A stretch of DNA of 64,000 nucleotides, taken from Natrialba magadii ATCC 43099 (GTDB lineage: Archaea; Halobacteriota; Halobacteria; Halobacteriales; Natrialbaceae). The notes under the pieces are model-generated. The model worked only from the letters and a program-made list of their open reading frames with translations, searched no databases and was not told where the DNA came from. This document shows positions 25,979 to 63,610 of the stretch, one piece after another; position 1 is the first letter of the stretch; each line of letters opens with the position of its first letter. The stretch covers positions 124,001 through 188,000 of the forward strand of contig NC_013922.1 in the NCBI RefSeq assembly GCF_000025625.1, in the 5' to 3' direction. The position numbers were made by a program, and so were the translations under genes.

Positions 25979-26168
25979 TACGCGGTTAGACAGGCTATGG
26001 TCACATACTACTTGTGGTTGGTACTAATGACGATGACACTACTAAATCAATAAAATAGGAATGTCAATGGTATGCGTAAATGAGACACCACACTATTTTA
26101 GACAAGATGTTTATATAACAATCATCTATTAGTTATGTGTGGTGGAATATAATTAATAACAATATGGA

Positions 26169-27383: not shown

Positions 27384-27467
27384 GCTCTACTCAAATTAAT
27401 TGGTCCATCAATAAAAAACCTCATCACAACACCGAACAATTGGCAAAACATCAGTTTTGACACCCAT

Positions 27468-28544: not shown

Positions 28545-28619
28545 TCTCAGCTAGGATAAGCAATCATTTGTGAGTTGGCTATTTATTAGTACCGCTACAA
28601 TCAGGAATGATGGTACTGT

Positions 28620-29030: not shown

Positions 29031-29039
29031 AATAAAGTT

Positions 29040-29375
29040 GGCACCCGGCACTGTTTAGTAGCCTAGTCTGAGAAGCGAGCATGGGTCGTAGAGCTAATTT
29101 GGCTATGTCACTTGTAGACCTGCTCAGCGAGTCCTACGCGGCGGAATTTGATGAAGCTTGGGAGAGTGAACGGACGGCGACGCCCATTGGGTGTTCGCTT
29201 TGAGAGATACAAGTAATTCTTCGCTTGGTCGGCGGTCGAACGCTCTCATCAAGCAATCTGTCACTGGGTACATTGGTTGGCTGATAGCGTTCCGGACCCA
29301 CCGATGGCAAAGCCATCGCGGGTCGCAGTTGATGAGACCCTCAGCAGACAAACACCAACCGAGGTTCTAAACTAG
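29040..29375 (+). mobile_element. transposase N-terminal relic, opposite strand
   Basis: One plus-strand frame reads VERSHQAICHWVHWLADSVP, followed by DPPMAKPSRVAVDET. This is the helix-turn-helix and first catalytic region (VAVDET) of an IS6/ISH-type transposase. Frameshifts precede it and it ends abruptly at about 29370. It lies head-to-head with the relic at 28620-29030. Confidence 0.55.
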
Positions 29376-29686
29376 ACAGTGCCTCCCTGAGAAAGTTGAC
29401 GAGTTGATGGGAACTCCTCACCACCGCGTTCTTATCCCTCAACACTCATTCAGACAGTTTTCTAAGCTTGGAAGATTAAGATCATGAGAGCACAAATTCG
29501 TGTATGCTGATATGCAGCACGTCGTTAATTCGATGATTTTCTTGCAGTTCCACTGCCATAGTATCCGTCTGAAGATTGACCTTTAAACCACCCCGGCCAT
29601 TATTTCAACTTGTATGGGGTAATTAAATGGCACCAACGCTCTACTGGAAACAATTCTTTTATTGATTGGTCTGTTAAAAGGCAGGT
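29376..29686. other. intergenic remnant upstream of the asparagine-synthetase-like gene
   Basis: The stretch 29395-29460 (GACGAGTTGATGGGAACTCC and on) resembles the sequence at 33690-33760 beside the other IS6-like relic, so it is probably element flank. The remaining 200 bases are AT-rich and hold no gene; they probably contain the promoter of the next gene. Confidence 0.35.
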
Positions 29687-31294: not shown

Positions 31295-31405
31295 CAATTG
31301 GATTCCAATACATTAGTTTTTGCCAACTCCTATAATTCCATTTTCGCTCTTCTGTAGGAGATTGTTGATACTGCTCAGCTGTCGCTGTGGAATCGAAGAG
31401 AGCAA

Positions 31406-31427
31406 GGACACCGCGTCAGCGGTGTCC
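31406..31427. promoter_or_regulatory. perfect hairpin before the IS1595 transposase
   Basis: GGACACCGC and GCGGTGTCC form 9-bp perfect arms around GTCA, ending 8 bases before the transposase ATG (31435). A degenerate copy is found at 32958-32979 in the same position relative to the second element. It could be a terminal structure or a hairpin that blocks readthrough translation. Confidence 0.55.
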
Positions 31428-31434
31428 GTTAGGC

Positions 31435-32169
31435 ATGATTCCGCTAGATGTGTTTGGGTCGGAATCGGTCGCAGCGGACCTGTTAAAGCAGGTTCGCTGG
31501 CGTAACGGTGTTACTTGCCCTCGCTGCCGTTCTGACCTGACGGTCAAGAACGGCAGCTATGGCCACTTTCAGCACTATCTCTGTAAGAATTGCGACCGCA
31601 CGTTCAACGACAAGACCGGCACGATCTTCGCCCATTCGAAAGTCGCGCTCAGGAAGTGGCTGTTCTCGATTTACGCGTTTCTCCGGTTTAACACGAGTCT
31701 TCACCAACTTCAGCTAGAGATTGACCAGTACAAAACGATCTACCAGCACATCGAACGTTTCACGAAGGCGCTCAACGCGCCTTCGCTCAACCTCGTTGGT
31801 CCCGTCGAAATCGACGAAGTCTACGTTTCTGCAGAGTTGAAAGGCCGCGAGCGCGACCAAGAGTCGCGCTCGCGTGGCCTGTCCACGCGTGGGCGAGGAT
31901 CATACGACCAGGATAAACCGCCGGTGTTCACGATCGTCGATCGCGGCACCGGCGAGCGATACGTGATTGCCGCGAAATCAGCCGACGAAGACGTTCACGT
32001 CAATACCTGCGAGAGCCACGGATCGCTGCTGCGACCGTGGCTCTCGCCTCATCGAGGCATCTCAAAAGATAAACTCACACAGTATCTCCGAACGTTCCAA
32101 CTTCGAGGAAAGTTACTGCGAAAACCAGGGAGAAAAGCGCTCAAACACGCTGTCAAAGCTACGCTGTGA
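31435..32169 (+). mobile_element. IS1595-family transposase, internal deletion
   Basis: This 244-residue protein has an N-terminal zinc ribbon (CPRCRSDL and CKNCDRTF), DDE start VEIDEVYVSA, and the C-terminal SPHRGISKDKLTQYLRTFQL. Family members of this type carry roughly 45 more residues between the AAKSADE segment and HVNTCES, including the second acidic catalytic residue. Here the two segments are fused (KSADEDVHVNTCES), so the protein should be inactive. The frame itself has no stops, which suggests a recent deletion. Confidence 0.75.
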
Positions 32170-32265
32170 AATCAACAAAGTGCTATACAAGGGCGTCTTC
32201 AATTGTCCCTCTAATATTCCATGAAAACCCATAGCTACTTCCTCAATTAGGTCTATCTGCCTTAT

Positions 32266-32931
32266 ATGCGCACCATTGAAATAATTGGACCGTCTGGGGC
32301 TGGGAAAACAACATATGCAATGAAAACATCAGAAAGGGAGAATTTCCATCGGAACTTAATGGATTTATTAGATTCAAAGACGCCAATTAGGTCTCCTTTC
32401 AGACGAATTCCAAAAAGAGATGAAATTAACCACATATTTTTTTCTATTATGGGGCATTATTATGGTAAAAAATTCACTACTCAATATCCTGGTGTTCTTG
32501 AGACGACTGCAGAAATCATACGTAATTACAACGACAAACATAATGTATTAGATTTTGTATTCCGCGAAGCAGCTCAGTTCGAGTTCTTTTCATGTAAACT
32601 GGGCCACGATGATATCTATCTATGTGATGATGGACTGTATCAATTCCATCTTCGGTTATTAGTTCTTGATAAATGGGGTGCGAAAGATATTATGGACAGA
32701 CTCCCGATTCCTGACAAACTGATTTTTGTGGATGCCCCCCCAATTCAATGTCTTGAACGTCAAGAAACTCGGCCGAGGGGACGGACTTCTCGATTAGAAA
32801 ATGTGGATGAATCAACAGCAATAACTGAACTTGATAAAATGCGTTCTGCTTCTCTAGACTTTATTTCTGAAGCTAAAAGAAGAAATGTCAATGTGGAAAT
32901 TATTGATAATGGGGAGGGAAGCTTCATTTGA
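32266..32931 (+). CDS. P-loop kinase-like protein
   Basis: This 221-residue protein starts MRTIEIIGPSGAGKTTYAMK with a Walker A at residues 8-16. It has CDDGLYQFHLRLL in the middle and LIFVDAPPIQCLERQETRPR later, the pattern of thymidylate/adenylate-type kinases. It is AT-rich and belongs with the foreign section of the island. Its relation to the other kinase at 24609 is architectural rather than close. Confidence 0.68.
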   Translation: MRTIEIIGPSGAGKTTYAMKTSERENFHRNLMDLLDSKTPIRSPFRRIPKRDEINHIFFSIMGHYYGKKFTTQYPGVLETTAEIIRNYNDKHNVLDFVFREAAQFEFFSCKLGHDDIYLCDDGLYQFHLRLLVLDKWGAKDIMDRLPIPDKLIFVDAPPIQCLERQETRPRGRTSRLENVDESTAITELDKMRSASLDFISEAKRRNVNVEIIDNGEGSFI

Positions 32932-32944
32932 CCTTCACTATAAG

Positions 32945-33012
32945 ATTAAAGACATAAGGACACCACATCAGCGGTATCCGTAGGCATAACACCTTCCGTG
33001 CGATTGGTGTGT
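32945..33012 (+). mobile_element. IS1595 left-end relic
   Basis: AAGGACACCACATCAGCGGT and the following bases parallel 31404-31440, the hairpin and start of the IS1595 element, with several substitutions. The rest of this second copy resumes at about 33770, after an IS6-like relic, so one element has been inserted into another. Confidence 0.5.
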
Positions 33013-33037
33013 AAACAGTTTTAGTTGTTACTATAGT

Positions 33038-33645
33038 TCAGTACCTCCTCAGTTGGCGTTCGGCCATTGAGCGCTTGATTCGGTCGATCGTGGTTATATT
33101 GGTGACTGAACCGTTTAAGCCAGCGTCTTGTGCTGGCCAGACTGCCCTGACAGAACGAGTGAAACGGTCGATTCGCATTGAGACAGTCTGAAACCACTCT
33201 TCGACGTGGTTTCGCCCGCTGTAGTCGAGCTGACCGCTTAATTCATGGTGCGTGAGGGCAGTCAGATAGCCGCTAGCATCGACGAGAAACTCTGTCTCGT
33301 CGGTTTCGTGTTTCTCGGAGAGTCGGTGCAGGAACGCCGCCGCGGGACCAGTCCCGCGACGGCTGAACACGTCGATCCCGGGCAGTAGCTTCGATTCTGT
33401 GTCGATTGCAGCGTACAACCATTTTTATCGCCGTTGACCTCGATCTGTTTCTCGTCGACCGCGACCCGCGACGGCTGCGCCGTCGGAGGGTCGCTCTGAG
33501 CCTCTGATAATTTGTGCGCCCAGTTCCAAATTACGCTGTGAGAACAGTCAATATCGAATAATTCGAGGGCTGCAACGACCTCCCGAACTGACAATCCCAT
33601 CGAATGCAGTCGTACCCCGAACACCCTGACGGGTGTTTGGGTGCG
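33038..33645 (-). mobile_element. IS6-like transposase pseudogene
   Basis: Two minus-strand frames together give nearly the whole protein: SVREVVAALELFDIDCSHSV, VAVDEKQIEVNGD, YAAIDTESKLLPGIDVFSRR, FLVDASGYLTALTH and the C-terminal RRWLKRFSHQYNHDRPNQAL. Frameshifts near 33420 and 33150 break the gene. It lies inside an IS1595 relic (32945-33012 and 33770-34085). Confidence 0.7.
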
Positions 33646-33769
33646 CTCGTTCTCCCAACCTCATCACAATCCACGTCTAAGGTCTCTCTGAGCAGATTAG
33701 CGAGTTGCATTGGACACTTCTCGCCACCACCTGTTCTTTCCTCAAGCTCTCATCTAGCCAGTGCCGTGA

Positions 33770-34085
33770 TTAGTGATATATTTAATTGCAAGACCGATAT
33801 GATCTTCGATCATTCGAAAGTCTCACTCAGAAAGTGGCTGTTCTCAATCTACACGTTCTCCAATCACGAGTTTTGTCAATCTAAGTGTGAATTCGTGTCT
33901 ACGTCCCATTCGATGGGGACGTCGCATTTGACCGCGAATACGTCGCCCACATCGACGGGGAATTCGCTGACGAAGACGTTCACGTGCACACTTGTAAGAG
34001 CGTGCGAGTCGCTGTTGCGACCGTGGCTCTCGCCCCATCGAGGCACTTCAATTGATATGCTCACTTAGTATCTCCAAGGGTGGAC
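33770..34085 (+). mobile_element. IS1595 right-part relic
   Basis: The plus strand reads DHSKVSLRKWLFSIYTFSN, then in other frames GEFADEDVHVHTC and LLRPWLSPHRGTSIDMLT, all matching the transposase at 31435-32169 with frameshifts. It retains the HVHTC segment next to GEFADED, part of the middle region that is missing in the deleted copy upstream. Confidence 0.6.
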
Positions 34086-34095
34086 CTGGTGGCGG

Positions 34096-35313
34096 TTAGT
34101 CAGTAGTTTTCTGCTTGATGATTATTCTATTACTAATTTCACTCTCCTTAATCAAGTACCCAAAACACATAGATAAGATTATTGTACTGAAGCCGGTTCC
34201 AATGATCATAACATCTTCTACAAAAGATTCGGTTAGGATTGAGATGGAAACAGACATCATTAGGACGTTTGACTCATCTCTAGCAATGGACAGAAGTAAA
34301 ACCTGGTATATAATGGAGAGGTATGAAATGAGTCCAATTATACCAGAATACAGTAAAATTGATAAATACCCATTATGTGGATTCACCCCCATTATTTCTG
34401 GTGTATAAAGATATGGGGCTATCAATTCGCTCCGGGGTACTAATCCGTTTCCTAAAATGATATTATTTGAAGAGGCGTTCAGGGTAGCATCCCATATCTC
34501 AAATCTATGACTGAAATCAATGCTTTTGATTGTATTTGGCCAAGGTATTAGTCCAAAAAAGAAAAGAAGTGCTGACGAGTATCCAAAGAGAACTATTGCA
34601 TACACTTTCTTATAAATCTCCTTATTGTAAAAATAGTATATTAAGTAAATAGAGAAACCTATAGAAAAGGCAGCAAGACTTCCTCTGCTACCAGTCAAAT
34701 ATAACCCAAATATGTTTATAGCTACTACTCCCCCCCAAAGTGTATTGCTTGTGTTATGATACTCTGAGAAGGCGAATATTGAACCAATCATTAAAAACCT
34801 GCCTAGTGAATTTTGACTACCTTCGAAGATTGATCTCAACCGGGTTACAGAACTATATTCAACTGCCTGGACTTGAAACCAAAATAAATCATATGTTCCG
34901 ATTATGAGTGCTGGCAACCCAATGATTACGACCACTGACGAAAACACTGCGATAGCCTTTGATATCACTCTGTAATTTATGTAATTGGGGAAGATAAACA
35001 TGAATATAACTGGGTAAAGAACGCCATAGATTGGATAAAATGCATTGTGCGCGAGGTTGTAACGCCCATTATGTATGTGATACAGCAACACAAGAAATAT
35101 TATGAAAAAAGCAATTCCGATGGACTTAACATACTCAACAGCCACTCCACCATATATTGAATATATTATTATTAGGAACAAAAAGGTTAGAATTATAGAT
35201 GATGCGTTCCCTATTGTTGTATTAACAACTACCGTACTAGGTAATAATATAATAATCAATAGAAATACAAACAAGATATTTACTATATATCCTTTCCAGT
35301 CATTTTGATCCAT
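34096..35313 (-). CDS. O-antigen polymerase/ligase-like membrane protein (Wzy-like)
   Basis: This 405-residue integral membrane protein has about eleven helices and a large loop containing NNIILGNGLVPRSELIAP, ending in the Wzy_C signature VNPHNGYLSILLYSGIIGL. Such proteins polymerise or ligate lipid-linked glycan repeats outside the membrane. It is AT-rich with abundant ATA codons. Its presence argues that the island makes a repeat-unit polymer or transfers a finished glycan, not just short N-glycans. Confidence 0.8.
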   Translation of the reverse strand: MDQNDWKGYIVNILFVFLLIIILLPSTVVVNTTIGNASSIILTFLFLIIIYSIYGGVAVEYVKSIGIAFFIIFLVLLYHIHNGRYNLAHNAFYPIYGVLYPVIFMFIFPNYINYRVISKAIAVFSSVVVIIGLPALIIGTYDLFWFQVQAVEYSSVTRLRSIFEGSQNSLGRFLMIGSIFAFSEYHNTSNTLWGGVVAINIFGLYLTGSRGSLAAFSIGFSIYLIYYFYNKEIYKKVYAIVLFGYSSALLFFFGLIPWPNTIKSIDFSHRFEIWDATLNASSNNIILGNGLVPRSELIAPYLYTPEIMGVNPHNGYLSILLYSGIIGLISYLSIIYQVLLLSIARDESNVLMMSVSISILTESFVEDVMIIGTGFSTIILSMCFGYLIKESEISNRIIIKQKTTD

Positions 35314-35584
35314 GATTTTGGATGGCCCTCTTAGGGTGCTACGGAAAGTAATAAGTTAAATAGTCTGGATCAAGCCAGACACGGTATAAATGACTATTGT
35401 CGGTTTACGTGTCCGACTGATCTAACACAAGCCTTCTCCAACTTTAGTGATGAATCGGCACTCAGTACAAAAGGTGTCGTCTATAGTATGGATTAGAAAA
35501 ATAATACTCTTCGAATCAAACGAAAAAGCGATAACCATCTTGGGTAATCACACCCAAGAGACACATCCAGTCACGTTGACCAGA
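35314..35584. other. intergenic region upstream of the Wzy-like gene
   Basis: About 270 bases separate the polymerase start from the IS630 relic. The first part is AT-rich and is likely promoter. No gene-like frame is visible. Confidence 0.35.
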
Positions 35585-36165
35585 TAATTTGACAGACGAC
35601 CCCATCCTGCGGGAAAACCACGCGGCACGCGACTCGGCTTGGACGGATTTCTTGGTTTGGTCAATACAGACTACTGTGGCGTCCATTTCCTTCTATTTTA
35701 ACCTTTGCGGAACGTTTCTTGCTCGTCGGCATCGGATTCGGCAGCTGTACGGCGTGGTTTTTGATAGCTCAATCCCACTTTTTGAGTAACCGCTGGCAAC
35801 TTGGGATTGAATATTTGACATCGTACGTCTCGCCAAGATACTGCTGGACGAGGGCTGGCGTCCATGCCGGCGCGTCAAGCCCAACCTTCTCAGGTGGTTC
35901 GTGGACAGTTGCTTCGAACTGTTCTTGTTCTTTTCTCTAAATTTTCTGAGTTTTCCCAGATCGATAAGATCAGAAACAGCCTGCTCAAGCGACACATTAG
36001 TATCAAGTCGCTTGAGCCAACTATAGATCGTCCGTCGCTCTACGCTGAACCACTTGGCTAGTTCTGTCTTCTAAACACCGCTTTGTGAGAGATTGCGGCT
36101 CAGAGCCGTTGTGTCGGCTTCTTTCTACCGACCTTGTCAAGAGCATTTTGTAACTCTCCCATCGA
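35585..36165 (-). mobile_element. IS630-family transposase relic
   Basis: In several minus-strand frames the pieces LAKWFSVERRTIYSWLKRLD, VGLDAPAWTPALVQ-like DNA, and MDATVVCIDQTKKS can be read in the right order. These are the helix-turn-helix and first DDE motif of an IS630-type transposase. Stops and frameshifts interrupt them, and the C-terminal half is missing. Confidence 0.6.
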
Positions 36166-36350
36166 AAACCCGTTGAGGTAGTCACTGTCTCTTGCAACAC
36201 CCTACGAGCAAATAATTATGACAATCGATACAGATGGTAGAATAAAACATATGTGGGATTTTGGATTTATTATATGGGTTCTTCAAATTCCAACCCGGAG
36301 ATACTCATCTATATCCCAATCACTATTATAGTGCTCAATCTAATAACGAT

Positions 36351-37487
36351 ATGACCTTAGAAGCTAATCCAATTCCGTTGTTTAAAATTGACTGGGATCA
36401 GTCTGACATATCAAATGCAATTGAGTCGATAACTCGCGGTAGCTATTGGGCAAAGGGTCCGTTTGTCTCTGAATTCGAATCTAATCTTGAGAACGTTCTT
36501 AACGTGAAGCACGCGCTTGTCGTCAACTCTGGAACAACAGCACTCGTAGCTGCCCTCAAGGCGCTCGAGATTGGTCGTGGCGACGAAGTGATTGTGCCAT
36601 CGTTCACATTCATCGCAACGGCAAATGCCGTCAGGCTTGTTGGAGCTGAACCGGTGTTTGCAGATATTGAAGCAGACACCTATGGCTTGGACCCGGATCA
36701 TGTCCGGTCACAAATTACCGACAAAACTGCAGCGATTCTTCCGGTCCACTGTTACGGAACTAGCTGTCGGATAGACAAGCTCTGCGAAATCGCCGACAAA
36801 CATAACCTCTACCTGTTAGAGGACGCTGCTGAAGCACTCGGTGCAGAATACCGTGGGCAGAAACTGGGGACATTTGGTGATATAGGAGTTCTGAGCTTCT
36901 GCCAAAACAAGATTGTCGCGACCGGCGAAGGAGGTGCGGTGATTACTGATGACGATGATATCGCTCAACGTATCCGTCTATACCGGTCTCATGGTCGTGT
37001 CTCCGAGAACTACTTTGAGAGTGCATCATCAGGTCAGTATGCCGATGTAGGAACGAATATTCGAATGGGTGATTTGCCTGCGGCAATTGGATGTTCACAA
37101 CTGGATCGCCTTCCTGACCTGATCACTGGCCGTCAACGGGTTGCATCTCAGTACACTGAGAAATTCGAAAATCTTGAGGGGGTGCATCCCCACACACCAA
37201 TGAGAGAAGCAACACATGTTCATCAACTATATACAATTGAACTTGGAAATACAGTCAATAGATCAAACGTAATAGAGACCCTCGCTGACCGTAATATTTC
37301 CTCTAAGGTTTATTGGGATCCTGCCGTTCATGGGACTTCGTATTACAAAGAATCGAAAGAGACGATCCCCAACCTACCAGTCACCGAAGAAACATCTCAA
37401 CAGGTACTCAGCTTACCAATGCATCCAAATTTATCATCTTGTGAAATTACCAGAGTCGTTAATGCAGTTAAGGACGCAATCCAGTAG
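36351..37487 (+). CDS. DegT-type PLP sugar aminotransferase (LegC-like)
   Basis: This 378-residue enzyme of the DegT/DnrJ/EryC1 family should add an amino group from glutamate to a 4-keto sugar nucleotide. It has HALVVNSGTTALVAALKALE, DEVIVPSFTFIATANAV, LLEDAAEALGAEY and the Schiff-base Lys in CQNKIVATGEGGAV. ATG 36351 is chosen over 36261 because the extension is AT-rich and unlike protein. It heads the nonulosonic-acid gene run and would act after the dehydratase encoded next. Confidence 0.85.
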   Translation: MTLEANPIPLFKIDWDQSDISNAIESITRGSYWAKGPFVSEFESNLENVLNVKHALVVNSGTTALVAALKALEIGRGDEVIVPSFTFIATANAVRLVGAEPVFADIEADTYGLDPDHVRSQITDKTAAILPVHCYGTSCRIDKLCEIADKHNLYLLEDAAEALGAEYRGQKLGTFGDIGVLSFCQNKIVATGEGGAVITDDDDIAQRIRLYRSHGRVSENYFESASSGQYADVGTNIRMGDLPAAIGCSQLDRLPDLITGRQRVASQYTEKFENLEGVHPHTPMREATHVHQLYTIELGNTVNRSNVIETLADRNISSKVYWDPAVHGTSYYKESKETIPNLPVTEETSQQVLSLPMHPNLSSCEITRVVNAVKDAIQ

Positions 37488-37542
37488 CTTGTAGAACGAT
37501 ACTCCGAAAACTGTTTTACTCCTTTAGTATAGCTAGATATCA

Positions 37543-38565
37543 ATGACCTCTCTCACTGGAAAGCGGGTTCTTGTTACTGGCGGGTGTGGATCCATCGGAT
37601 CTCATCTTGTGCATGAAGTACTCTCTGAGGATCCCGAAATAATCCGGGTACTTGACACAGACGAAGAGGGACTATTCAAACTTCAGAAATCTCTTGGAGA
37701 TGATGCCCCAGTACGATACCTACTAGGGGATATCCGTGATAAAAATCGGCTGGAGTTAGCGATGGAAAATATTGATGTAGTCTTTCATGCTGCCGCATTG
37801 AAACACGTCACATTAAATGAGTATAACCCCTTCGAGACGGTACAGACGAACGTTGAGGGTACCCAGAACGTTATTCAGGTTGCTCTTGATGAAGAGGTTG
37901 AATCGTTTGTCGCCGTAAGTACCGATAAAGCATCAAACCCGACATCGGTTATGGGAGCTACAAAGTTATTGTCGGAACGGCTCGTTATCGCTGCAAACAC
38001 CTATAAAGGTGATCGCGAAACCCGATTCGGGTGTGTTCGATTCGGAAATGTGCTAGCTTCCAGTGGGTCAGTAGTCCCACTGTTTATGGAACAGATACGA
38101 TCTGGCGGTCCGGTAACAGTGACTGATCCAGAGATGACGCGGTTCATTATGCCGATCAGCGAAGCAGCGGAACTGGTTCTTGATGCTCATGAGCGGATGA
38201 CGAGCGGGGAGGTATTTGTTTTGAAGATGCCAGCACTCCAGATTGGAACACTCGCTGAAACAATGGTTGAGGAGTACGCGCCTACATACGGTCATAGCGT
38301 CTCAAGTATTGAAATTGACATAATCGGTGCCCGGCCGGGCGAACGTGTCCATGAGAAGCTAATCTCTGCCGACGAGTGTTCGGCAGCTCGAGAACTGGAG
38401 GACATGTTCGTACTCCTTCCTCAGATAGACGCACCTGGATACGAGGCTGTTAATTACACCAACGCTGAGCATGTAAATGGAGAATATACCTCGGTGGACG
38501 CACATTTACTCTCTGAGAACGAAATTATCGAACTTATTGGATCGATAGATGGGCTCCCTAAATAG
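37543..38565 (+). CDS. UDP-sugar 4,6-dehydratase, FlaA1/PseB/LegB family
   Basis: This 340-residue short-chain dehydrogenase-like enzyme has the Rossmann motif VTGGCGSIGSHLV, the family motif FVAVSTDKASNPTSVMGATK (Asp-Lys and Met-x3-Lys catalytic positions), and FGNVLASSGSVVPLF. It should convert UDP- or GDP-GlcNAc into a 4-keto-6-deoxy sugar, the first step to legionaminic or pseudaminic acid. It lies 55 bases after the aminotransferase. Confidence 0.85.
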   Translation: MTSLTGKRVLVTGGCGSIGSHLVHEVLSEDPEIIRVLDTDEEGLFKLQKSLGDDAPVRYLLGDIRDKNRLELAMENIDVVFHAAALKHVTLNEYNPFETVQTNVEGTQNVIQVALDEEVESFVAVSTDKASNPTSVMGATKLLSERLVIAANTYKGDRETRFGCVRFGNVLASSGSVVPLFMEQIRSGGPVTVTDPEMTRFIMPISEAAELVLDAHERMTSGEVFVLKMPALQIGTLAETMVEEYAPTYGHSVSSIEIDIIGARPGERVHEKLISADECSAARELEDMFVLLPQIDAPGYEAVNYTNAEHVNGEYTSVDAHLLSENEIIELIGSIDGLPK

Positions 38566-38573
38566 CGATTCAG

Positions 38574-39272
38574 ATGACTTGTGAAACACTCGCCATAATT
38601 CCTGCTCGCGGTGGATCGAAACGAGTCCCACGTAAAAACGTTCGTGAAGTGGCAGGAAAGCCACTCATTGCCCACACGATAGAACATGCTACGTCCGCAA
38701 ATCGAATTGACCGTACTATTGTTTCGACTGATGACAAGGAGATAGCGGAAGTGGCCAAGGAGTACGGTGCTGACGTTCCGTTCATGCGACCTGAAAAGCT
38801 TGCAACTGACACGGCGGCATTACCAGATACAGTCACTCATGCAGTCAGTAACTTACAGAGTGAAGAAACCAACTACGATTATATCTGCATACTGCAAGCA
38901 ACCTCTCCTCTCCGTACTTCGGCAGACATCGATGGAGCACTCGCTAAGCTTGATGACACAGAGGCTGATTCGTGTCTTACTGTTTCCAAGTACGTTACTC
39001 CTCCACAATGGGCTGTGACAAGAGATGAGAACGGGTCCTTGTACGAGTTCTTCGACTTCGAAACACTTTGGACTGACGAACCAGACCGAAGCCAAGATAT
39101 ACCAGAACTCTACCATCCGAATGGTGCTGTGTTCGTAACCTCTATCGAGGCTTGGCGTAAGCACGAGTCATTCTACACACCACATACGGTTGGTTATGAG
39201 ATGCCGCCAGAGCGATCCTTTGATGTCGACGAACCCTGGGAACTCAAACTCGTCCGCAGTCTTCTCGAGTAG
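38574..39272 (+). CDS. neuA: CMP-nonulosonate cytidylyltransferase (NeuA/LegF)
   Basis: This 232-residue enzyme activates a nine-carbon acidic sugar with CTP. It has the nucleotide-binding start IIPARGGSKRVPRKNVREVA, the segment ICILQATSPLRTSADIDGAL and the C-terminal FDVDEPWELKLVRSLL. It starts 8 bases after the dehydratase stop, so the genes are cotranscribed. Sequence alone does not show whether the sugar is sialic or legionaminic acid; the dehydratase and aminotransferase favour the latter. Confidence 0.88.
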   Translation: MTCETLAIIPARGGSKRVPRKNVREVAGKPLIAHTIEHATSANRIDRTIVSTDDKEIAEVAKEYGADVPFMRPEKLATDTAALPDTVTHAVSNLQSEETNYDYICILQATSPLRTSADIDGALAKLDDTEADSCLTVSKYVTPPQWAVTRDENGSLYEFFDFETLWTDEPDRSQDIPELYHPNGAVFVTSIEAWRKHESFYTPHTVGYEMPPERSFDVDEPWELKLVRSLLE

Positions 39273-39325
39273 CAAACCAACTCCTAAGTAACGGCATTAA
39301 TGTCGATGTGCACTGTTCCTTCTGT

Positions 39326-40492
39326 ATGAGCAGTACTCGACGGAAAATTCTCGTCCTGACAGGAACCAGAGCCGAATATGGCCTTTTGAGGTCTTCAATG
39401 GAAGCAATACAGAATCATGACGACCTCACCCTTTCCATCGTTGCGACAGGGATGCATCTTTCCCCTCAACACGGTATGACTGTAGAGAAAATCCGCGAAG
39501 ACGGATTTTCGATCGATCGCGAGGTACTGATGCAACTCTCTGGGGATTCTGAAACTGCTATGGCAAAATCCCTAGGAATCGGTACTGCAAGCCTTGCAGA
39601 TGCCTTTGAAAGCCTCGATCCAGATGTTGTGCTCCTGCTAGGTGACCGTGACGAAGCGCTTGCAGGGGCACTTGCTGCATCACATATGAACATTCCAGTC
39701 GCCCACGTTCATGGTGGCGATTCAGCTCACGGCGCGATGATTGATGAAAGCATTCGGCACGCAATCACAAAATTCTCCCATATTCACTTTCCAGCATCCG
39801 AGCGTAGCGCAGAACGGATCAAAAAGTTGGGCGAAGAATCGTGGCGAATAACGATCGCTGGTGCACCTGGTCTCGATGACATTCTGGCTGGGGAGTACGA
39901 AGATCCAGAATCGGTACTACAGAAGTACGACCTGGACCCGGATCGCCGATTGCTCATGGTCCTCCAGCATCCGGTGACGACGCAACCGGACGCGGCAGGC
40001 GAACAGATGGCAGCCACATTGGATGCTGTCGAGTCAACTGAAGCACAGGCCGTTATTATCTATCCTAATTCGGACGCAGGGAGCAATCAGATGATCGATG
40101 AGATCGAGTCGCGGTCATTCGGAGCTGATGTCCGAACGTTCAGGAACATGCCCCGAAAAGAATATCTCGGTCTAATGGCAGCAACAGACGTGATGGTCGG
40201 AAATTCCTCGAGCGGAATTATCGAGGCACCTTCGTTCGATTTGCCAGTAGTCGACATCGGTCCGCGCCAGCGAGGTCGAGAGCGGACACAAAATACATTT
40301 TCTGCTGAACACGAGTCCGAACAGATACGTGAGAAGATATACCAATGTCTCAACGAAGGGGTATTGGACGAAAATCAAGACAACCCGTACGATTATGGAG
40401 GTGCTGGATCCCGTATTTGTGAACGAATACGGACTATAAACATCGATGAGAACATCCTTCGAAAGAAGTTAACATTCGGAAGGTGGTTCTAA
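39326..40492 (+). CDS. neuC: UDP-N-acetylhexosamine 2-epimerase, hydrolysing (NeuC/LegG)
   Basis: This 388-residue GT-B-fold enzyme should invert C2 and release UDP, giving the hexose precursor for the synthase. Motifs: LVLTGTRAEYGLLRSSM, VLLLGDRDEALAGAL, VAHVHGGDSAHGAMIDESIR and VMVGNSSSGIIEAPSF. ATG 39326 is chosen over 39308, since the shorter form starts at the usual point before SSTRRKILV. It is collinear with neuA. Confidence 0.88.
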   Translation: MSSTRRKILVLTGTRAEYGLLRSSMEAIQNHDDLTLSIVATGMHLSPQHGMTVEKIREDGFSIDREVLMQLSGDSETAMAKSLGIGTASLADAFESLDPDVVLLLGDRDEALAGALAASHMNIPVAHVHGGDSAHGAMIDESIRHAITKFSHIHFPASERSAERIKKLGEESWRITIAGAPGLDDILAGEYEDPESVLQKYDLDPDRRLLMVLQHPVTTQPDAAGEQMAATLDAVESTEAQAVIIYPNSDAGSNQMIDEIESRSFGADVRTFRNMPRKEYLGLMAATDVMVGNSSSGIIEAPSFDLPVVDIGPRQRGRERTQNTFSAEHESEQIREKIYQCLNEGVLDENQDNPYDYGGAGSRICERIRTINIDENILRKKLTFGRWF

Positions 40493-40564
40493 ACGCTGAG
40501 TAGCATGGACTCGCTGGCTATTAGGGGATGCAATTAAAAGGGGCCTCAAGGAATAAAGACCGAT

Positions 40565-40966
40565 ATGACCGAAGATCCGCGTGATCGATTTGACGAATGG
40601 GAACAACCGGAGATCCGGGACGGCGAACTGACCGAGTATAATTGGGTTGTTCACAAGCCTGAGGGCTTGGAATTAGCTAAATACGTTGATATCGGTGCTT
40701 TCACTGTTATCAACGCACACGCAGGCATCCTCATCGAATCGGGGGTGCAAATAGGGCCTCACTGCGATATACACAGCAATTCTACAATCGATGGTGAGGA
40801 GGGCCCCATTGTAATTCGTGACGGAGCACGAATCGGATCTCATACCACTATTTTGCCTAATGTTGAAATTGGCGAGAACGCCTTAGTCGGATCGCACAGT
40901 CTTGTCTGCGAAGATGTACCACCAGGTGAGTTTGTAACAGGTGTTCCAGCGACTTTAAAAGAGTGA
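40565..40966 (+). CDS. hexapeptide-repeat acyltransferase (NeuD/LegH-like)
   Basis: This 133-residue left-handed beta-helix protein has repeats such as IESGVQIGPHCDIHSNSTI, IRDGARIGSHTTILPNVEIG and ENALVGSHSLVCEDVPPGEF. Such enzymes use acetyl-CoA to acylate a sugar amine. In this position it would N-acetylate the 4-amino group of the legionaminic precursor, or O-acetylate the product. It lies 72 bases after neuC on the same strand. Confidence 0.78.
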   Translation: MTEDPRDRFDEWEQPEIRDGELTEYNWVVHKPEGLELAKYVDIGAFTVINAHAGILIESGVQIGPHCDIHSNSTIDGEEGPIVIRDGARIGSHTTILPNVEIGENALVGSHSLVCEDVPPGEFVTGVPATLKE

Positions 40967-40996
40967 AACCGAACAAACTACCTATCTTGTATGGAA

Positions 40997-42046
40997 TCAC
41001 TCATCAAAGGAAATTGACGACTCCTGTATTGGACTCCCTTGCTCTATATCAATGAGGGTTTTGGCACCAATGACTGATTCAAATTTCCTAGGAGAGATTC
41101 CATCTGATGGCCGAATTACCTTTAGATCCGATTCCGACAAAGTTGTGCCAGCGTTAACATCTACGGCAGCATGAATACTTTTCCTTGCTGTTGAGCGATT
41201 TTCCATTTCGGCGGCAAGTGGCCGCTTCTCACCATCTCCAAGAGCAGTGGTTGCGACATCGACTTTGTCAATAGCCTCCTCTAACTCATCCGGCTCAAGG
41301 GATGTCTCATGGTCAGGGCCTGGTAGGGTGGAGTCAAGTGTGAAGTGCTTTTCAAGGATACAGGCACCAGCAGCTGTCGCTAATGCAGGTAGTTCAGTCA
41401 GCGTTGTGTGATCCGAATAGCCAACAGACACTTCCAATTCGTCTGACATTGATTGCATCGCACGAAGGTTCACGTCGCTTACTTCTGTGGGATATGATGA
41501 AGTGCAGTGAAGAAATACAATGTCTGCGCTCGGATTTTCGGCCTGAATTACAGTCTTAGCTGCCTTAATCTCCTCGAGCGTACCCATTCCAGTGCTTACG
41601 ATCATTGGCAAACCGTGTCCCGCAACATGAGTAAGCAGCGGGTGATTATCTAGGTCACCAGAACCGATTTTGAACGCACTGACGCCGAGATCAGCCAGCA
41701 TATCTGCACTCTGAATATCAAACGGTGTTGAAAGAAACGTGATGTTCTTTTTTGAACAGTAGTCGAGTAGCGTTCTATGTTCGTCCCTATTCAGCTCGTA
41801 TCGGGTCAACATTTCATATTGATCTGTTTCACCGGTGGCTGATTCCTGATACGCTGCAGTTGACGTATCTTGAGCCACCAGCCGATCTGTGCTGAACGTC
41901 TGGAACTTCACCGCATCTGCACCAGCATCGGCCGCGACATCGATCAATTTCTTGGCTCTATCTAACGAGCCATTATGATTGACCCCCGCTTCAGCTATGA
42001 AAAACGGACTACGATTGGGACCGATAACAGTTCCATCAATTTCCAT
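40997..42046 (-). CDS. neuB: N-acetylneuraminate/legionaminate synthase (NeuB/LegI)
   Basis: This 349-residue enzyme condenses a hexose with phosphoenolpyruvate to make a nonulosonic acid. The TIM barrel has FIAEAGVNHNGSLDRAKKL, VKFQTFSTDRL, LHCTSSYPTEVSDVN and LEKHFTLDSTLPGPDHETSL. The C-terminal antifreeze-like SAF domain ends with LKVIRPSDGISPRKF. It is convergent with the acyltransferase gene. Confidence 0.9.
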   Translation of the reverse strand: MEIDGTVIGPNRSPFFIAEAGVNHNGSLDRAKKLIDVAADAGADAVKFQTFSTDRLVAQDTSTAAYQESATGETDQYEMLTRYELNRDEHRTLLDYCSKKNITFLSTPFDIQSADMLADLGVSAFKIGSGDLDNHPLLTHVAGHGLPMIVSTGMGTLEEIKAAKTVIQAENPSADIVFLHCTSSYPTEVSDVNLRAMQSMSDELEVSVGYSDHTTLTELPALATAAGACILEKHFTLDSTLPGPDHETSLEPDELEEAIDKVDVATTALGDGEKRPLAAEMENRSTARKSIHAAVDVNAGTTLSESDLKVIRPSDGISPRKFESVIGAKTLIDIEQGSPIQESSISFDE

Positions 42047-42115
42047 AGCTTATCTGAATTCCGAAGGTGCTTAGAGTTGACTCCCAGTTATTCCCTACAG
42101 GAAAGAACCAGTAAC

Positions 42116-43924
42116 TTACTCTACTTGTGACTGGATTGTGTACAGTTCGGCGTATTCCCCGTCATTAGCAATAAGCTCTTCATGTTTGCCTGACTCAATG
42201 ATCTCGCCTGCCTCTACTGTGTATATCCGATCTGCGTTTTTCACTGTTGATAGACGATGTGCGATACCTACCATTGCGTACTCTCGATCCATGTTCTCGA
42301 TTGCTTCCTGTACTTGCTGTTCTAGATTCGAGTCGAGATCACTCGTTGCTTCATCTAATACGAGCAGATCGGCGTCTTTGAGCAACGCCCGTGCCAGTGC
42401 CACTCGCTGTTTTTGTCCACCGGACAATCGTACGCCATCGTCACCGAGTTGCGTTTCGTAGCCGTCTGGCATTTCGCCGAGGTATTCGTCAACCTTTGCG
42501 GTCTCACAGACTCGGTCCAGCTCCGCATCGGTCACGTCACGGTTTCCGATCGTCAGGTTGTACCGTAGCGTGTCATTGAAGATAAACGGATTCTGCCGCA
42601 CGACTGCGATTTTTGAGCGCCACTTGTCGACATCCATCTCGTGTATCGACCGACCGTTCGCCCGGATTTCCCCCGAGTCGGGTTCGTACATCCGCGCAAG
42701 CAGCGAAATGATCGTTGATTTTCCCGCCCCAGATTGGCCGACGAAGCCGATAAACTCGCCTTTCTCGAGCTCAAACGAAATGCCCGAGAGAGCCTCGTCG
42801 TCTTGACCCTGGTACGAGAAGTGAAGATCGTCGACCTCGACGTGATCAATTTCGTCCGGCACAGGTTCGCTCGCCGTCTGGGGCTCTCGACTCGCCTCGA
42901 GTTCATCAATGAACCGCTGCGTCCGAACTAGATGCGGAAGGTTGTTCTCAACCTTATAGAGCAACTTGTTTACTTGGCTGGCCTTCGGTCCGAGGCGGAA
43001 CATCGCAAAGAGGAACACACCAAGTGCGCTGAGTGACATGTCTGCAAACGCGATTGCGAGATAGATCAACAAGAAGACCGATACTGCAGTCAAGAGGTTG
43101 TAGAAGCTGTTGATTCCCTGTTCATTGCGTCGAAGCCTAATGCTTGACTGGGCGAAGTTGTTCACCGAAGTATAGAAATCATTATATAACTCTGATTTCA
43201 ATCCAAAGAGTTTGGTATCTCGGATTCCTTGCGTTCCAGCCTGGGCGGCTTCTTGCAGATGTTCGTTTGCCTCTGCAACTTGATCCCCGAGTTCGTATCC
43301 GGGCTCAAGGACGTACCGAAAGAGGACCGAAAAACCACCGAGGAATACGCCCGCAAACAGCGTGAGAAATGGGGCAAGAACGAGTGCAACGATCAAGTAC
43401 ATTAGAGCCAAGAGCGCTTGTTCAAGCAATTGCACGACGTACGTAATCGTTCGCCCGGCGTACTCTGCTTGCGTTACAATCGCGTTCAGAATATCATCGG
43501 ATCCTTCGCGATCAAAGTACTCAATCCGTGCGTCGAGCGCGTTATCGAAGGCCTGCTTCTGGATCTCGCGCGTATAGTCGATCACTAGCGCCTCTCGCAT
43601 CCAGCGAACGAAAAACGTCATTGTCCAACGGATGGCTAACACAACGCTCACACCGGTGACCACGAGACCGAGAGTGAATGGAATCCCGAGGAAGTTGTAG
43701 GCCATCACGAACAGCTCCATCACTCCATCGGCCTCCGCGGCTGGATCACCGGGAGACTGGACGATCTCCACGATGGGCATGATGAAGCCCAGTCCGACAC
43801 CTTCTAACAACGCAGCAAAGACGCCACCAAAAATAATTGCAATTACGAGCTTGGGGCGGTATTGCGCGACACGAACGAGTGCACGCAACTGCTCACGTCG
43901 ACTTATCGTCTCCCCGTCAGTCAT
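42116..43924 (-). CDS. ABC exporter/flippase, transmembrane-ATPase half-transporter
   Basis: This 602-residue protein has six membrane helices in the N-terminal half and an ATPase domain with Walker A GQSGAGKST, signature RLSGGQKQR, Walker B LLVLDEATSDLD and switch His IAHRLSTVK. A homodimer would export lipids or lipid-linked glycans. Next to a nonulosonic acid locus, a PglK-like flippase for the lipid-linked glycan is the reasonable inference. Confidence 0.85.
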   Translation of the reverse strand: MTDGETISRREQLRALVRVAQYRPKLVIAIIFGGVFAALLEGVGLGFIMPIVEIVQSPGDPAAEADGVMELFVMAYNFLGIPFTLGLVVTGVSVVLAIRWTMTFFVRWMREALVIDYTREIQKQAFDNALDARIEYFDREGSDDILNAIVTQAEYAGRTITYVVQLLEQALLALMYLIVALVLAPFLTLFAGVFLGGFSVLFRYVLEPGYELGDQVAEANEHLQEAAQAGTQGIRDTKLFGLKSELYNDFYTSVNNFAQSSIRLRRNEQGINSFYNLLTAVSVFLLIYLAIAFADMSLSALGVFLFAMFRLGPKASQVNKLLYKVENNLPHLVRTQRFIDELEASREPQTASEPVPDEIDHVEVDDLHFSYQGQDDEALSGISFELEKGEFIGFVGQSGAGKSTIISLLARMYEPDSGEIRANGRSIHEMDVDKWRSKIAVVRQNPFIFNDTLRYNLTIGNRDVTDAELDRVCETAKVDEYLGEMPDGYETQLGDDGVRLSGGQKQRVALARALLKDADLLVLDEATSDLDSNLEQQVQEAIENMDREYAMVGIAHRLSTVKNADRIYTVEAGEIIESGKHEELIANDGEYAELYTIQSQVE

Positions 43925-44051
43925 CGTATATGTGGTTCACGTAGCTGGTGTTATATCCGTTGGTCTCCAGGTATTGAGCAGAGCAGCCACTGGTGGATTG
44001 TGATCGTGTGCTGTTTTTGACGTCGAGGCGTATTTAAAATTCCACTTGTTG

Positions 44052-58635: not shown

Positions 58636-58923
58636 ATGACATCCCGACTACGGTCAGATTCGATCCGACGTACAGTGACGCTCGTTGTCGTTGCCAGCCT
58701 ACTTGCGATGGCGATTTCGACGGGTGCGATGGCGAGTGAAGATGAAGAGGCCTCCGTCAACATCACCGAGACAACTGTTGAGGAGAGCCTGACGGAGGTC
58801 AGCGAGGAGTCTGTTGTCGAGGAGACAGTCGAGACGAGCTCCGACGGTGAGCCTGGCTTCGAGGTGTCGACGACCCCGACTGAGTCAGACGAATCGCCGT
58901 TCGGTAGCTGGCTCCCGTTCTGA
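58636..58923 (+). CDS. small secreted acidic protein
   Basis: This 95-residue protein has a signal peptide (RTVTLVVVASLLAMAISTGA, cleavage near AMASE) and a very acidic Thr/Glu/Ser tail. ATG 58636 is preferred over 58543. No family is recognised. It lies on the opposite strand to the adjacent 542-residue repeat protein. Confidence 0.55.
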   Translation: MTSRLRSDSIRRTVTLVVVASLLAMAISTGAMASEDEEASVNITETTVEESLTEVSEESVVEETVETSSDGEPGFEVSTTPTESDESPFGSWLPF

Positions 58924-59179: not shown

Positions 59180-60808
59180 TTAGGCTCCGGCCCAGACGTT
59201 CGTTGCGGAGACCGCTCCGAACTGAACGTTTTCGTTCTCCTGCATCGTCACCTGTGCGGAGTCAGCGCTGCCGTTGTCGTCGGCGACGGCGATTGCGGCC
59301 TGCTGCTCGTTGACGTTCTCCTGGGTGACGAACTGGATCTGTTCGATCTGAGCGGTTGCGTCCTGCTCAACGTCGTTGGTCTGCTGTGCGTCGGCGTCGA
59401 ACGCGATGCCTGGCGCACCCGCGACATCACCGCCACCGAGCGTCATGCTGGTGGTCTCGGAGTGGATGGTGCTGTCGTGGACGTAGCCGGGTCCGGCGTA
59501 GACGTTCAGCGCGTCAGCGAAGCCGATCTGTGCGTTGAGGTTCTGCTGGTGGGCAAGCTGGACTGCGGTGGCGTCGCTACCGTTCGTGGCCATTGCGATC
59601 GCGGAACTCTGGAGGTTGACGTTCATCTGCTCGACCTCCTGGGCCTGGGTGACGCCAGAGGTGGCAGCCTGTCGGTCACCGTCGTCCTTCTTGTGCTTCT
59701 TGTCCTTCTTATCCTTCTTGTCCTTCTTGTCCTTCTTGTCGTCGTGCTTCTTATCGTACTTCTTATCCTTCTTGTCGTACTTCTTGTCCTTCTTATCGTC
59801 GTCCGCCTTCTCATCCATCGCGCTCACTGCCTGTGCAGTGTCTTTCATCGCATCAGTGTCATCGACACCGCTCGTCGCGATGTTCATGCCGGCGAGTGAG
59901 GCGAAGACGCTCGAGGCGTCTGCGGAGCCGATCTGCTCGTTGAAGTTCGACTGTTCGGTGAACTGGATCGCCGTTGCGGTACTGTTCTCACCGACGGCGA
60001 TCGCGACTGCGGCATCCTGCTGGTTGACGTTCTCCTGGGAGGCCGCCTGCTCCTGGTTGACCGTCGCGTCAGCGGACTGGTCCATGAAGTCACCGCCACC
60101 AGCGTAGACGTTCGTTGCGTTCGCGACTCCCTGCTGGAGGTTCTGGTTCGTCTGGTGGGACTGCTGGATTGCGAGCGCCTCGCTCTCGTTGTCCGCGAGG
60201 GCGAAGGCGGTGCTCTGCTCGTTGTAGTTCAGCTGGCCGACGAGCTGGCTCTGGGTTACCTCAGCTTCAGCAGCCTGGTCGGCATCAGCGTCGACCTTAT
60301 CCTTGTGGTCCTTCTTGTCGGCGATACCCCAGCCGTCGAAGTGCTTGCCGTCACCGTTTCCGAGGACGACGTTGACGGTGCCAACGTCCTCGAAGGACGT
60401 CGTCTCACCGGGGATCGTCTCTGCGAGCGCTTCACCGAACTGCTCGTTGTCGTTGTACTGGTTCGCTTCCTGCACCGCGGTCGCTTCACCGCCGTCGATC
60501 GCGATCGAGGTTGCGTTCGACTGCTGGTTGATGTTTACCTGATCAACATCCTGGTACTGGTTCACCGTCGCGTCAGCTTCGCCGGACGCGTGGGATTCGA
60601 TGTACTCATCGAGTGTCATCCCGTCGAGTTCGGCACCGAAGACCAGATACAGTTCTTCGCCGTTCTCGAGCGCATGGACGTCTCCGTTCGATTTTACATC
60701 TTCGCCGGCCGCTGCTGCGGGGGCGCCCATTGCGATCATCGATAGGGCGACGATACACGCCATCAGGACGGTCGTATACTGTGACCGTCTCGTCGTTGTG
60801 TTACTCAT
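59180..60808 (-). CDS. secreted Gln/Asn/Ala-repeat protein, curli-like candidate
   Basis: This 542-residue exported protein has a signal peptide (VLMACIVALSMIAMGAPAAA, cleavage near residue 34) and five repeats of about 55 residues at roughly 80-125, 183-237, 248-307, 385-441 and 486-542. Each repeat contains two QxNxNxQ-type motifs and an AxAxA strand pattern, such as VNQEQAASQENVNQQDAAVA, usually ending NVxAG. Residues 333-379 form a Lys/Asp-rich linker (DKKYDKKDKK). The Gln/Asn ladders and alternating pattern suggest a beta-solenoid or amyloid surface fibre. ATG 60808 is preferred over 60856. Confidence 0.75.
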   Translation of the reverse strand: MSNTTTRRSQYTTVLMACIVALSMIAMGAPAAAAGEDVKSNGDVHALENGEELYLVFGAELDGMTLDEYIESHASGEADATVNQYQDVDQVNINQQSNATSIAIDGGEATAVQEANQYNDNEQFGEALAETIPGETTSFEDVGTVNVVLGNGDGKHFDGWGIADKKDHKDKVDADADQAAEAEVTQSQLVGQLNYNEQSTAFALADNESEALAIQQSHQTNQNLQQGVANATNVYAGGGDFMDQSADATVNQEQAASQENVNQQDAAVAIAVGENSTATAIQFTEQSNFNEQIGSADASSVFASLAGMNIATSGVDDTDAMKDTAQAVSAMDEKADDDKKDKKYDKKDKKYDKKHDDKKDKKDKKDKKDKKHKKDDGDRQAATSGVTQAQEVEQMNVNLQSSAIAMATNGSDATAVQLAHQQNLNAQIGFADALNVYAGPGYVHDSTIHSETTSMTLGGGDVAGAPGIAFDADAQQTNDVEQDATAQIEQIQFVTQENVNEQQAAIAVADDNGSADSAQVTMQENENVQFGAVSATNVWAGA

Positions 60809-61465
60809 GTTTCGTTTGATCTGAGCCGTGAGAGTCTTTTGTTTCTGCATCTCCACGGCGCAAACCTTCGTATCCCGATGATAGACTTTGTTATCTGGCT
60901 GTTGTCGAACTGATGGAAGGGCCTACTGAACGGAAGACACCGACTTCTCCGGCCGAATGGAGTGCTTTCGACGGTGGTACCCGCCGGAACAATTGGCCGC
61001 CTGCATCCGGTTAGAGCGGTATCTGGGGACGCACACCCGGCTCGTTCGAATTCGTCGCACCTGGACGGTCACTGATGGATGATTGTTACAGCGACCAAAG
61101 CAGGGCGTTACCGTTCTCAAAACAGTCAATCAGCAGTCAACCAGTTCCTGTGTCTGGCTCCACCTGTCTGTTGCAAGCCTTCAATAGCTGTTCAACGACG
61201 GATCGGGGAGATCGCTGGCATCGTCCCAGGGAAACACGCGTTTCAGCGATCTGTAGGATGGCTCACAGAGCGATAGTTTCGGCTTCAATCACGCTAATCG
61301 GAGTATTCGCCGTGAAACCGTTGTTCGGGTTGAAGTAGTCCTCACTGTTGTGTTGTGACCGGGCAACGCGCCACAGCAATCGGGGTCACCAGTGGCTTGA
61401 CCACTGAACTCGTCGTCACGAGCGGCCCCGGTTCTGCCGTGGAGCGTGCCTCAGGATTACAACAC
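60809..61465. other. 657-bp divergent intergenic region between the two repeat-protein genes
   Basis: The genes for the 542- and 127-residue repeat proteins point away from each other here, so both promoters should lie in this spacer. Small frames (60923-61129, 61075-61338) show no conserved character. The spacer is long for this chromosome, leaving room for regulatory sites. Confidence 0.45.
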
Positions 61466-61849
61466 ATGAAGCGAACACTCGCAATTACACTGACGGTAGC
61501 GCTCTTTGGCAGCCTCATGTTCATGGGGTTTGCCGGCACGGCAGCAGCACAGAATCAGGGCGACGCAAACGTCGATATCAACATCGACCAGGAAAACAAC
61601 AATGAACAGGTAGGCATCGCTGAGTCGTACTCCAGTGCGACTGCCCTCGGAGCGTCGGCCTCTGACAGCAAGTGGGGCACCTCGACTGGCGCCTCTGCCT
61701 TCAGTGCATCCAACGCTGAAGTGAACCAGAACCAGATCAGCGTCCAGACCAACGCTGCAAACGTTGAGGGTGTGACGGCCACGAGTGGTGATAACATCAA
61801 CGTCGGCGACATCGATGTCGACAACGGTAACGTCGTCAACATCGGCTAA
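61466..61849 (+). CDS. small secreted Asn/Gln-rich protein, partner of the repeat protein
   Basis: This 127-residue protein has a clean signal peptide (MKRTLAITLTVALFGSLMFM, then GFAGTAAA) and a mature part with ANVDINIDQENNNEQVGIAE and AEVNQNQISVQTNAANVEGV, then an NxxVGDIDVDNG end. The VxxNxxQxNxNxQxGxA pattern is shared with the 542-residue protein encoded divergently. It could be a minor or nucleating subunit. ATG 61466 is chosen over 61355 because the signal begins there. Confidence 0.7.
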   Translation: MKRTLAITLTVALFGSLMFMGFAGTAAAQNQGDANVDINIDQENNNEQVGIAESYSSATALGASASDSKWGTSTGASAFSASNAEVNQNQISVQTNAANVEGVTATSGDNINVGDIDVDNGNVVNIG

Positions 61850-63375: not shown

Positions 63376-63420
63376 ACCTAGAGGAGGGATAGCGTGCGCA
63401 AAAAGCCATGCTTCTCTGGT

Positions 63421-63610
63421 GTCTGTGGTGTGTTCGTGGTAAGTCTGTGCTGCGTTCGTGGTGTGTCTGTGGTGTGTTCGTGGTAGGTCTGTGCTGTGTT
63501 CGTGGTGTGTCTGTGCTGTGTTCGTGGTGTGTCTGTGCTGTGTTCGTGGTAGGTCTGTGCTGTGTTCGTGGTGTGTCTGTGTTGGTTCGTGCTGTGTTCG
63601 TGTTGCGTCT
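63421..63610 (+). repeat. 22-bp tandem repeat array upstream of larC
   Basis: The unit GTCTGTGCTGTGTTCGTGGT plus GT recurs with an exact 22-base period (starts at 63487, 63509, 63531, 63553 and 63575), with degenerate units on both sides. Because 22 is not a multiple of three, all frames stay open and create long false ORFs. There are no spacers, so this is a minisatellite rather than a CRISPR. It lies between larC and the Cdc48 gene. Confidence 0.75.

Follow-up and report, generated by a model that had tools for sequence, protein, structure and literature searches.

A divergent gene pair of Natrialba magadii ATCC 43099 encodes a candidate two-component system of extracellular repeat proteins that may form fibres, a reading to which we would give a probability of about 0.5. 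The pair, one large and one small secreted protein with a common repeat rich in Gln, Asn and Ala, looks from its sequence like an independently evolved counterpart of the bacterial curli and Fap fibre proteins. It lies in the stretch of 64,000 nucleotides that we have analysed (the window, C1:124001-188000, on a contig of 3,751,858 bases), and the genome searched comprised 4,443,643 bases in 4 contigs. An earlier note on this DNA had described the pair as resembling a curli-like amyloid system, and that reading was partly supported.

Organization of the gene pair

The large gene is on the reverse strand and the small one on the forward strand, their starts being 657 bp apart in divergent orientation. 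The features are as follows.

59180..60808 (-): large secreted repeat protein, 542 aa; ATG at 60808, stop codon 59180-59182, N-terminus MSNTT...
60707..60808 (-): Sec-type signal sequence of the large protein, MSNTTTRRSQYTTVLMACIVALSMIAMGAPAAAA, from the sequence; conserved in the alignment of relatives
60584..60676 (-): conserved non-repeat N-terminal element, LYLVFGAxL...LDEYIE, ~residues 45-75; invariant alignment columns
60416..60574 (-): repeat 1, residues 79-131
60308..60400 (-): conserved non-repeat element between repeats 1 and 2, TxFEDVGxVNVVxGNGDGKxFDGWGxADKK, ~residues 137-167; invariant columns
60086..60265 (-): repeat 2, residues 182-241
59888..60082 (-): repeat 3, residues 243-307, adjoining repeat 2
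59672..59812 (-): variable Lys/Asp-rich linker from repeat 3 to repeat 4, differing in length among aligned relatives; 9-bp tandem array
59486..59671 (-): repeat 4, residues 380-441
59183..59365 (-): repeat 5, residues 482-542, the C-terminal end of the large protein
60809..60905 (-): conserved non-coding leader/promoter block of the large gene, ~100 bp, with a GATAACAAAG core matched at 60877-60895
61466..61849 (+): small secreted partner, 127 aa; ATG at 61466 rather than 61355
61466..61549 (+): signal sequence of the small partner, MKRTLAITLTVALFGSLMFMGFAGTAAA; start near-identical in most partners
61565..61624 (+): segment of the small partner like the second half of the repeat, ANVDINIDQENNNEQVGIAE, from the sequence
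61715..61768 (+): segment of the small partner like the first half of the repeat, AEVNQNQISVQTNAANVE, from the sequence

The description of the pair in the earlier note was accurate, save that the small protein starts later (61466) than its ORF. Both proteins carry signal sequences, as it had stated, each hydrophobic with AAA at its end. The five ~55-residue repeats ascribed to the large protein were all located (residues 79-542), and each has two Q-x-N-x-N-x-Q motifs flanking A-x-A-x-A. N-x-N-x-Q occurs 10 times in the large protein; 2000 composition shuffles gave 0.25 occurrences on average and never more than 3. A repeat profile run over the whole genome matched exactly five places, which were repeats 1 to 5. 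The small protein, said to carry the same motif once or twice, contains one full motif (QENNNEQ) and one partial motif (NQNQISVQTN), with the halves in reversed order relative to the large-protein repeat; its matches to the repeat profiles were weak (E 0.007 with the tandem-unit and E 0.07 with the single-unit profile).

A longer start of the large ORF at GTG 60856 is unlikely on comparative grounds, because several relatives have a broken frame in the extension even though its DNA is conserved. The 16 upstream codons were dropped as an N-terminal extension for these frame breaks. The large gene is under purifying selection (pN/pS of 0.24-0.32 against four relatives, with pN of 0.06-0.16 and pS of 0.25-0.49), and the YLVFGA of its N-terminal element is found in distant Tat-type members too. 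Near the large gene, positions 58636-58920 encode a 95-aa acidic protein with a signal sequence and no family match; considered as a third component, it was rejected, being absent from the shared neighbours.

The non-coding block upstream of the large gene reads CAAC-N5-GATAACAAAG-...-GGTTYGCGYCG-...-GAC--TCACG across genera. An exact GATAACAAAG was present at 70 of 91 scanned loci, 14 of the 91 being of the Tat types, all of which are without it; the block keeps a near-fixed spacing to the start and was found in unanchored and PGF types. The genome contains one exact copy of the full site and one further copy with a single mismatch. Such a block could be a core promoter with an unusually conserved leader, or a regulator site. 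The consensus fold computed for a conserved RNA structure in this leader was empty.

The repeat unit and its predicted fold

We have gathered by pattern 499 repeat units out of 106 distinct large proteins. Lack of repeat conservation in homologues had been named in advance as an observation that would speak against the reading; conservation was present in this set, and the strict alternation of Gln, Asn and small residues along the strand was seen across its 499 repeats. Their consensus is xAxVxQxQxVxQxNxNxQxxAxAIAxxGSxATAxQxxxQxNxNxQxGxAxAxNV. Conservation falls on alternate positions, shifting register once (positions 19-21) and passing through a turn at 27-30; 21 of the 22 least variable of the 55 positions lie on one strand face. 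This face 1 is 48% Q/N and 39% A/G/S, with 0.4% D/E and 0.1% K/R, and has a mean entropy of 0.6 bits. Face 2 is variable (mean entropy of 2.9 bits), with 22% D/E, and is on average 42% hydrophobic, with hydrophobic residues almost throughout at positions 15, 22 and 24. The collecting pattern itself fixes positions 6 and 12 strictly and positions 8 and 14 loosely; therefore, the alternation argument rests on other, equally strict positions (35, 39, 41, 43 and 45), which are free in the pattern yet are 99-100% Q or N. Five repeats were counted by the strict pattern in 80 of the 106 large proteins and four or three in the remainder, where diverged copies were probably missed.

This pattern strongly suggested that each repeat would be composed of two long beta-strands (~20-24 residues each) with a D/N-G-S turn between them. 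It also strongly suggested that the Gln/Asn/Ala face would be buried and the acidic, salt-adapted face exposed, because the exposed surfaces of haloarchaeal proteins are acidic and face 1 is nearly uncharged. Burial of face 1 alone would nevertheless be too simple a picture, given the hydrophobic content of face 2. With the facing strands paired antiparallel, N16 would lie with N41, N14 with N43, Q12 with Q45, and Q8 and Q6 with A49 and A51.

AlphaFold2 modelled the full-length large protein from an alignment of the window sequence and two close species only, with a pLDDT of 28.6, too low for the model to be of use. Repeats 2-3, to which repeats 4-5 were aligned as additional rows, were modelled at a low-confidence pLDDT of 58.0. 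The latter model is all-beta, with four strands of 20, 24, 24 and 22 residues; read from its strand list only, the strand arrangement being unreliable, it agrees with two long strands per repeat. A globular fold without repeats, likewise named in advance as speaking against the reading, was not seen in these models, although their low confidence leaves it some room. Foldseek searches with the same model retrieved long antiparallel hairpins of pore proteins from the PDB, with curli and FapC not among the matches, and ssRNA-phage maturation proteins from viral models. As far as this model goes, its matches have only long antiparallel strands in common with the repeats.

Distribution, export types and the small partner

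The large-protein query found matches in 99 of 125 Natrialbaceae genomes, covering 26 of 29 genera. With a family profile, 85 of the 391 genomes of the class matched, 79 of them Natrialbaceae and the other six spread over four further families (one of the six being marginal, E 7e-6), and the repeat profile matched only in Natrialbaceae among 393 genomes of the phylum. Public plasmid records add relatives of the large protein from Natronorubrum, Haloterrigena, Natrononativus, Haladaptatus and Halomicrococcus, which are named "hypothetical protein" or, for two public relatives, "PGF-CTERM sorting domain-containing protein"; in Natronorubrum bangense, "hypothetical" is the label of the large gene and of both divergent genes next to it. 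No relatives of the large protein were found in viral contigs or phage records. The family had not been recognised in the earlier note, and scans of Pfam and NCBIfam gave no match for either protein of the pair. A search of PDB sequences with the family profile returned only a chance match to PhoQ (E 0.23), and we found no description of the family of the pair in the open-access literature. One homologue of the large gene (L054, G068:C1:2023879-2025429) was reported with a single in-frame TGA, and the same genome has a TGA-free second copy.

Export types were assigned by sequence pattern, which placed the 106 large proteins into 77 of Sec type without an anchor, 15 of Sec type with a PGF-CTERM ending and 14 with a twin-arginine signal. 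On a tree of the large proteins, the Tat type forms a single clade and the PGF type arose twice. The large protein of the window is without the C-terminal PGF motif, hydrophobic stretch and basic end. The PGF-CTERM relatives (L070, L071, L100, L102, L103, L105, L106, L110, L115-L118, L130, L131 and L136) are predicted to be the anchored form of a protein that is otherwise secreted free. The Tat clade (L073-L076, L114 and L119-L127), whose members often have a Lys-rich tail and for which no partner was detected, takes in all examined relatives from other haloarchaeal families. The twin-arginine signal suggests that these proteins are exported already folded, in contrast to curli. The presence of Sec, PGF-CTERM and Tat export types supports that the large proteins would sit at the cell surface or extracellularly.

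Small partners were detected as small secreted Gln/Asn-rich ORFs within 2 kb of a large gene, and their counts are a lower bound since the detector missed at least one (L021). Eighty-seven partners were upstream and divergent, one was upstream on the same strand and none was downstream, with 0 in 180 kb of surrounding DNA. The conservation of the divergent pair, which the earlier note had proposed to check across haloarchaea, was observed across genera. A partner was found at 65 of 77 unanchored Sec-type, 6 of 15 PGF and 0 of 14 Tat large genes. Against the single-unit repeat profile, the best partner scored 54.7 bits (E 4e-16); 33 of 93 fell below 1e-3 and 40 of 93 lay above E 0.05, a level that none of 1860 shuffles fell below with the repeat profile. 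In some genera the small partner is one complete repeat (e.g. L068); in Natrialba its halves are swapped and match weakly. It is present in two tandem copies at L066, L068, L090-L092 and L094, and in three at L065. In 20 neighbourhoods, no set-wide neighbour was found beyond the partner except ordinary flanking genes and shadow reading frames.

We also considered the small partner as a substitute for a surface anchor. This failed on the tree, where the types cluster in clades and the independent pairs carry no signal: the association between the partner and the unanchored type is due to shared ancestry, and the independent-pairs test adds nothing.

Known fibre systems, proposed assembly and alternatives

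The proposed resemblance to curli stood as regards a large and a small protein with a common repeat, and failed as regards curli membership. The curlin HMM search that had been recommended (PF07012) gave no match to the large protein up to E 10; the best hit in the whole genome lay elsewhere, at 13.2 bits and below the cut-off, and the E. coli control was matched. A Pfam scan of 28 members at E 10 gave no curlin, a profile of the E. coli curlin repeat reached at best 8.4 bits on the large protein versus 6.6 bits for shuffled sequence, and hhalign of the repeat against the CsgA/CsgB repeats returned a probability of 0.6%. CsgG (PF03783), whose absence from the window had been noted, was without a match at E 10 both there and genome-wide. 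The likeness is one of logic, not homology: five repeats in E. coli CsgA as in the large protein, alternating residues with regularly placed Gln/Asn, and major and minor secreted subunits with a common repeat. Curli has an N-x-Psi-x-Psi-x-Q rung pair with rungs of ~20 residues, whereas the unit here is ~2.5 times longer, and the csgBA gene order differs from the divergent arrangement of the present pair.

The Fap system of Pseudomonas (FapC major, FapB minor; PDB 9nqd, 9u4u) also has secreted major and minor proteins with common imperfect repeats. FapC repeats are imperfect, of ~38 residues and fixed in number, with linkers very variable in length (PMC12392863, PMC12822426), and FapC combines an internal Asn/Gln network with these long linkers (PMC12392863). 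Long linkers of very variable length, a conserved Asn/Gln network and a fixed repeat number are features of the large protein as well. It differs in having five repeats of ~55 residues instead of three of ~38, in a minor component with about one repeat, and, as far as a comparison of 20 neighbourhoods goes, in having no fapABCDEF cluster or outer-membrane pore. Against three 24-residue FapC repeat cores, a short, small template of weak power, hhalign gave a probability of 2.6%. Judged by sequence, then, the pair is neither curli nor Fap. In its layout, with repeats of ~55 residues and linkers that are long and variable, the large protein resembles FapC more than CsgA, and by analogy of design Fap is the closest system.

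Among archaea, the methanogen sheath proteins MspA (Methanosaeta) and SH (Methanospirillum) are established amyloid-like proteins (PMC10593813, PMC6242892). They share with the pair an archaeal origin and an extracellular or secreted location, and they have amyloid-like structure, with beta-arches in SH. The ~40-kDa SH, which by its description showed no relation to the pair, is modelled as an alpha-helical cap with two six-stranded sheets that form hoops. Congo red and thioflavin T staining has been reported for Haloferax volcanii biofilms (PMC4180959), and HVO_1403, a proposed amyloid of that species (PMC4180959), stands on the unconfirmed list in PMC12520557. HVO_1403 was put forward as homologous to a Sulfolobus factor that is amyloidogenic and that the cited title identifies as an acylphosphatase. 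This candidate shares the haloarchaeal extracellular matrix context with the pair, whose family is concentrated in Natrialbaceae.

In the proposed fibre assembly, the two strands of one repeat would form a beta-arch, and the five arches would stack in register via Gln/Asn ladders into a beta-solenoid from which the hydrophilic linkers loop outwards. A fibre on the surface or in the matrix would then arise from large proteins joined end to end. The small protein, as a single rung, might start, cap or tether the fibre like CsgB and FapB, which we propose more weakly. Sec, or Tat in one clade, would place the subunits straight outside the cell, and an archaeosortase anchor would fix the large protein to the cell in two clades; a CsgG/FapF pore would not be needed because the archaeon has no outer membrane. 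The fuller proposal is tentative and stays somewhat short of even odds: a third independently evolved major/minor functional-amyloid system, the first in haloarchaea, with five-rung subunits, wide beta-arches (two ~23-residue strands per rung), a near-pure Gln/Asn/Ala zipper core, a setting in saturated brine, no outer-membrane machinery and a single-rung nucleator or tether.

The five repeats might instead form a non-polymerising intramolecular beta-repeat rod, that is, a surface stalk or adhesin, with the small protein as its ligand, cap or accessory adhesin. The PGF-CTERM-anchored and Tat-exported members do suggest a folded, cell-attached protein, the fixed number of five repeats could make a self-contained rod, and the conserved non-repeat elements near the N terminus could be its caps. 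We regard this as unlikely: most of the large proteins (77/106) are of Sec type without an anchor, the protein ends at repeat 5 with no C-terminal cap, and the partner carries the same rung, suggesting rung-to-rung contact between molecules. A different role for the small protein alone, as a chaperone or inhibitor against early assembly or as a second fibre subunit instead of a nucleator, seems rather doubtful. Sequence alone does not separate these roles and small partners are sometimes duplicated in tandem, but, like CsgB and FapB, the small protein has its own copy of the fibre repeat, and to our knowledge the anti-amyloid chaperone CsgC has not been described as a curlin-repeat protein.

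The strand faces bear on two further readings. Regular flat arrays of a single residue type also occur on binding faces, for example in antifreeze proteins, and the invariant Gln/Asn/Ala face could likewise be an exposed surface that binds polysaccharide, mineral or salt crystals, with the hydrophobic residues of face 2 as the core. This is improbable given that face 1 is almost devoid of charge where exposed haloarchaeal surfaces are acidic, that the acidic residues are on face 2, and that the nearly 40% of Ala/Gly/Ser on face 1 suits tight packing. A membrane pore of long beta-hairpins is hardly credible. It is brought to mind by the best Foldseek matches of the two-repeat model, which are hairpins of perforin, MAC and gasdermin type (E 5e-4 to 1e-2); yet the model is of low confidence and the matches are due to long hairpins alone (rmsd ~7-18 A, 5-13% identity). 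We rejected the pore for the chemistry of the strand faces, as face 1 is polar, face 2 is 22% acidic and neither is hydrophobic over a membrane-spanning length.

Returning to the candidate fibre system, amyloid dyes stain haloarchaeal biofilms, the protein responsible is not established, and a 2025 review has one unconfirmed candidate (PMC12520557, PMC4180959). The large/small pair offers a concrete candidate biofilm protein for one large haloarchaeal family. If fibres form, imperfect-repeat Gln/Asn fibres with a minor partner would have arisen again outside bacteria, an amyloid would fold in saturated brine, and parts of the curli/Fap machinery would prove dispensable without an outer membrane.

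Elsewhere in the window, a 22-bp tandem repeat is present in eight copies at 63419-63597, in the 5' part of a long ORF (TTG 63708) of a larC-like nickel-insertion gene. The true start of this gene is probably internal, the repeat then lying upstream of the gene. At 26000-44000, ~18 kb of markedly lower G+C (0.38-0.52 versus ~0.57-0.62 around it) is probably an integrated element or island.
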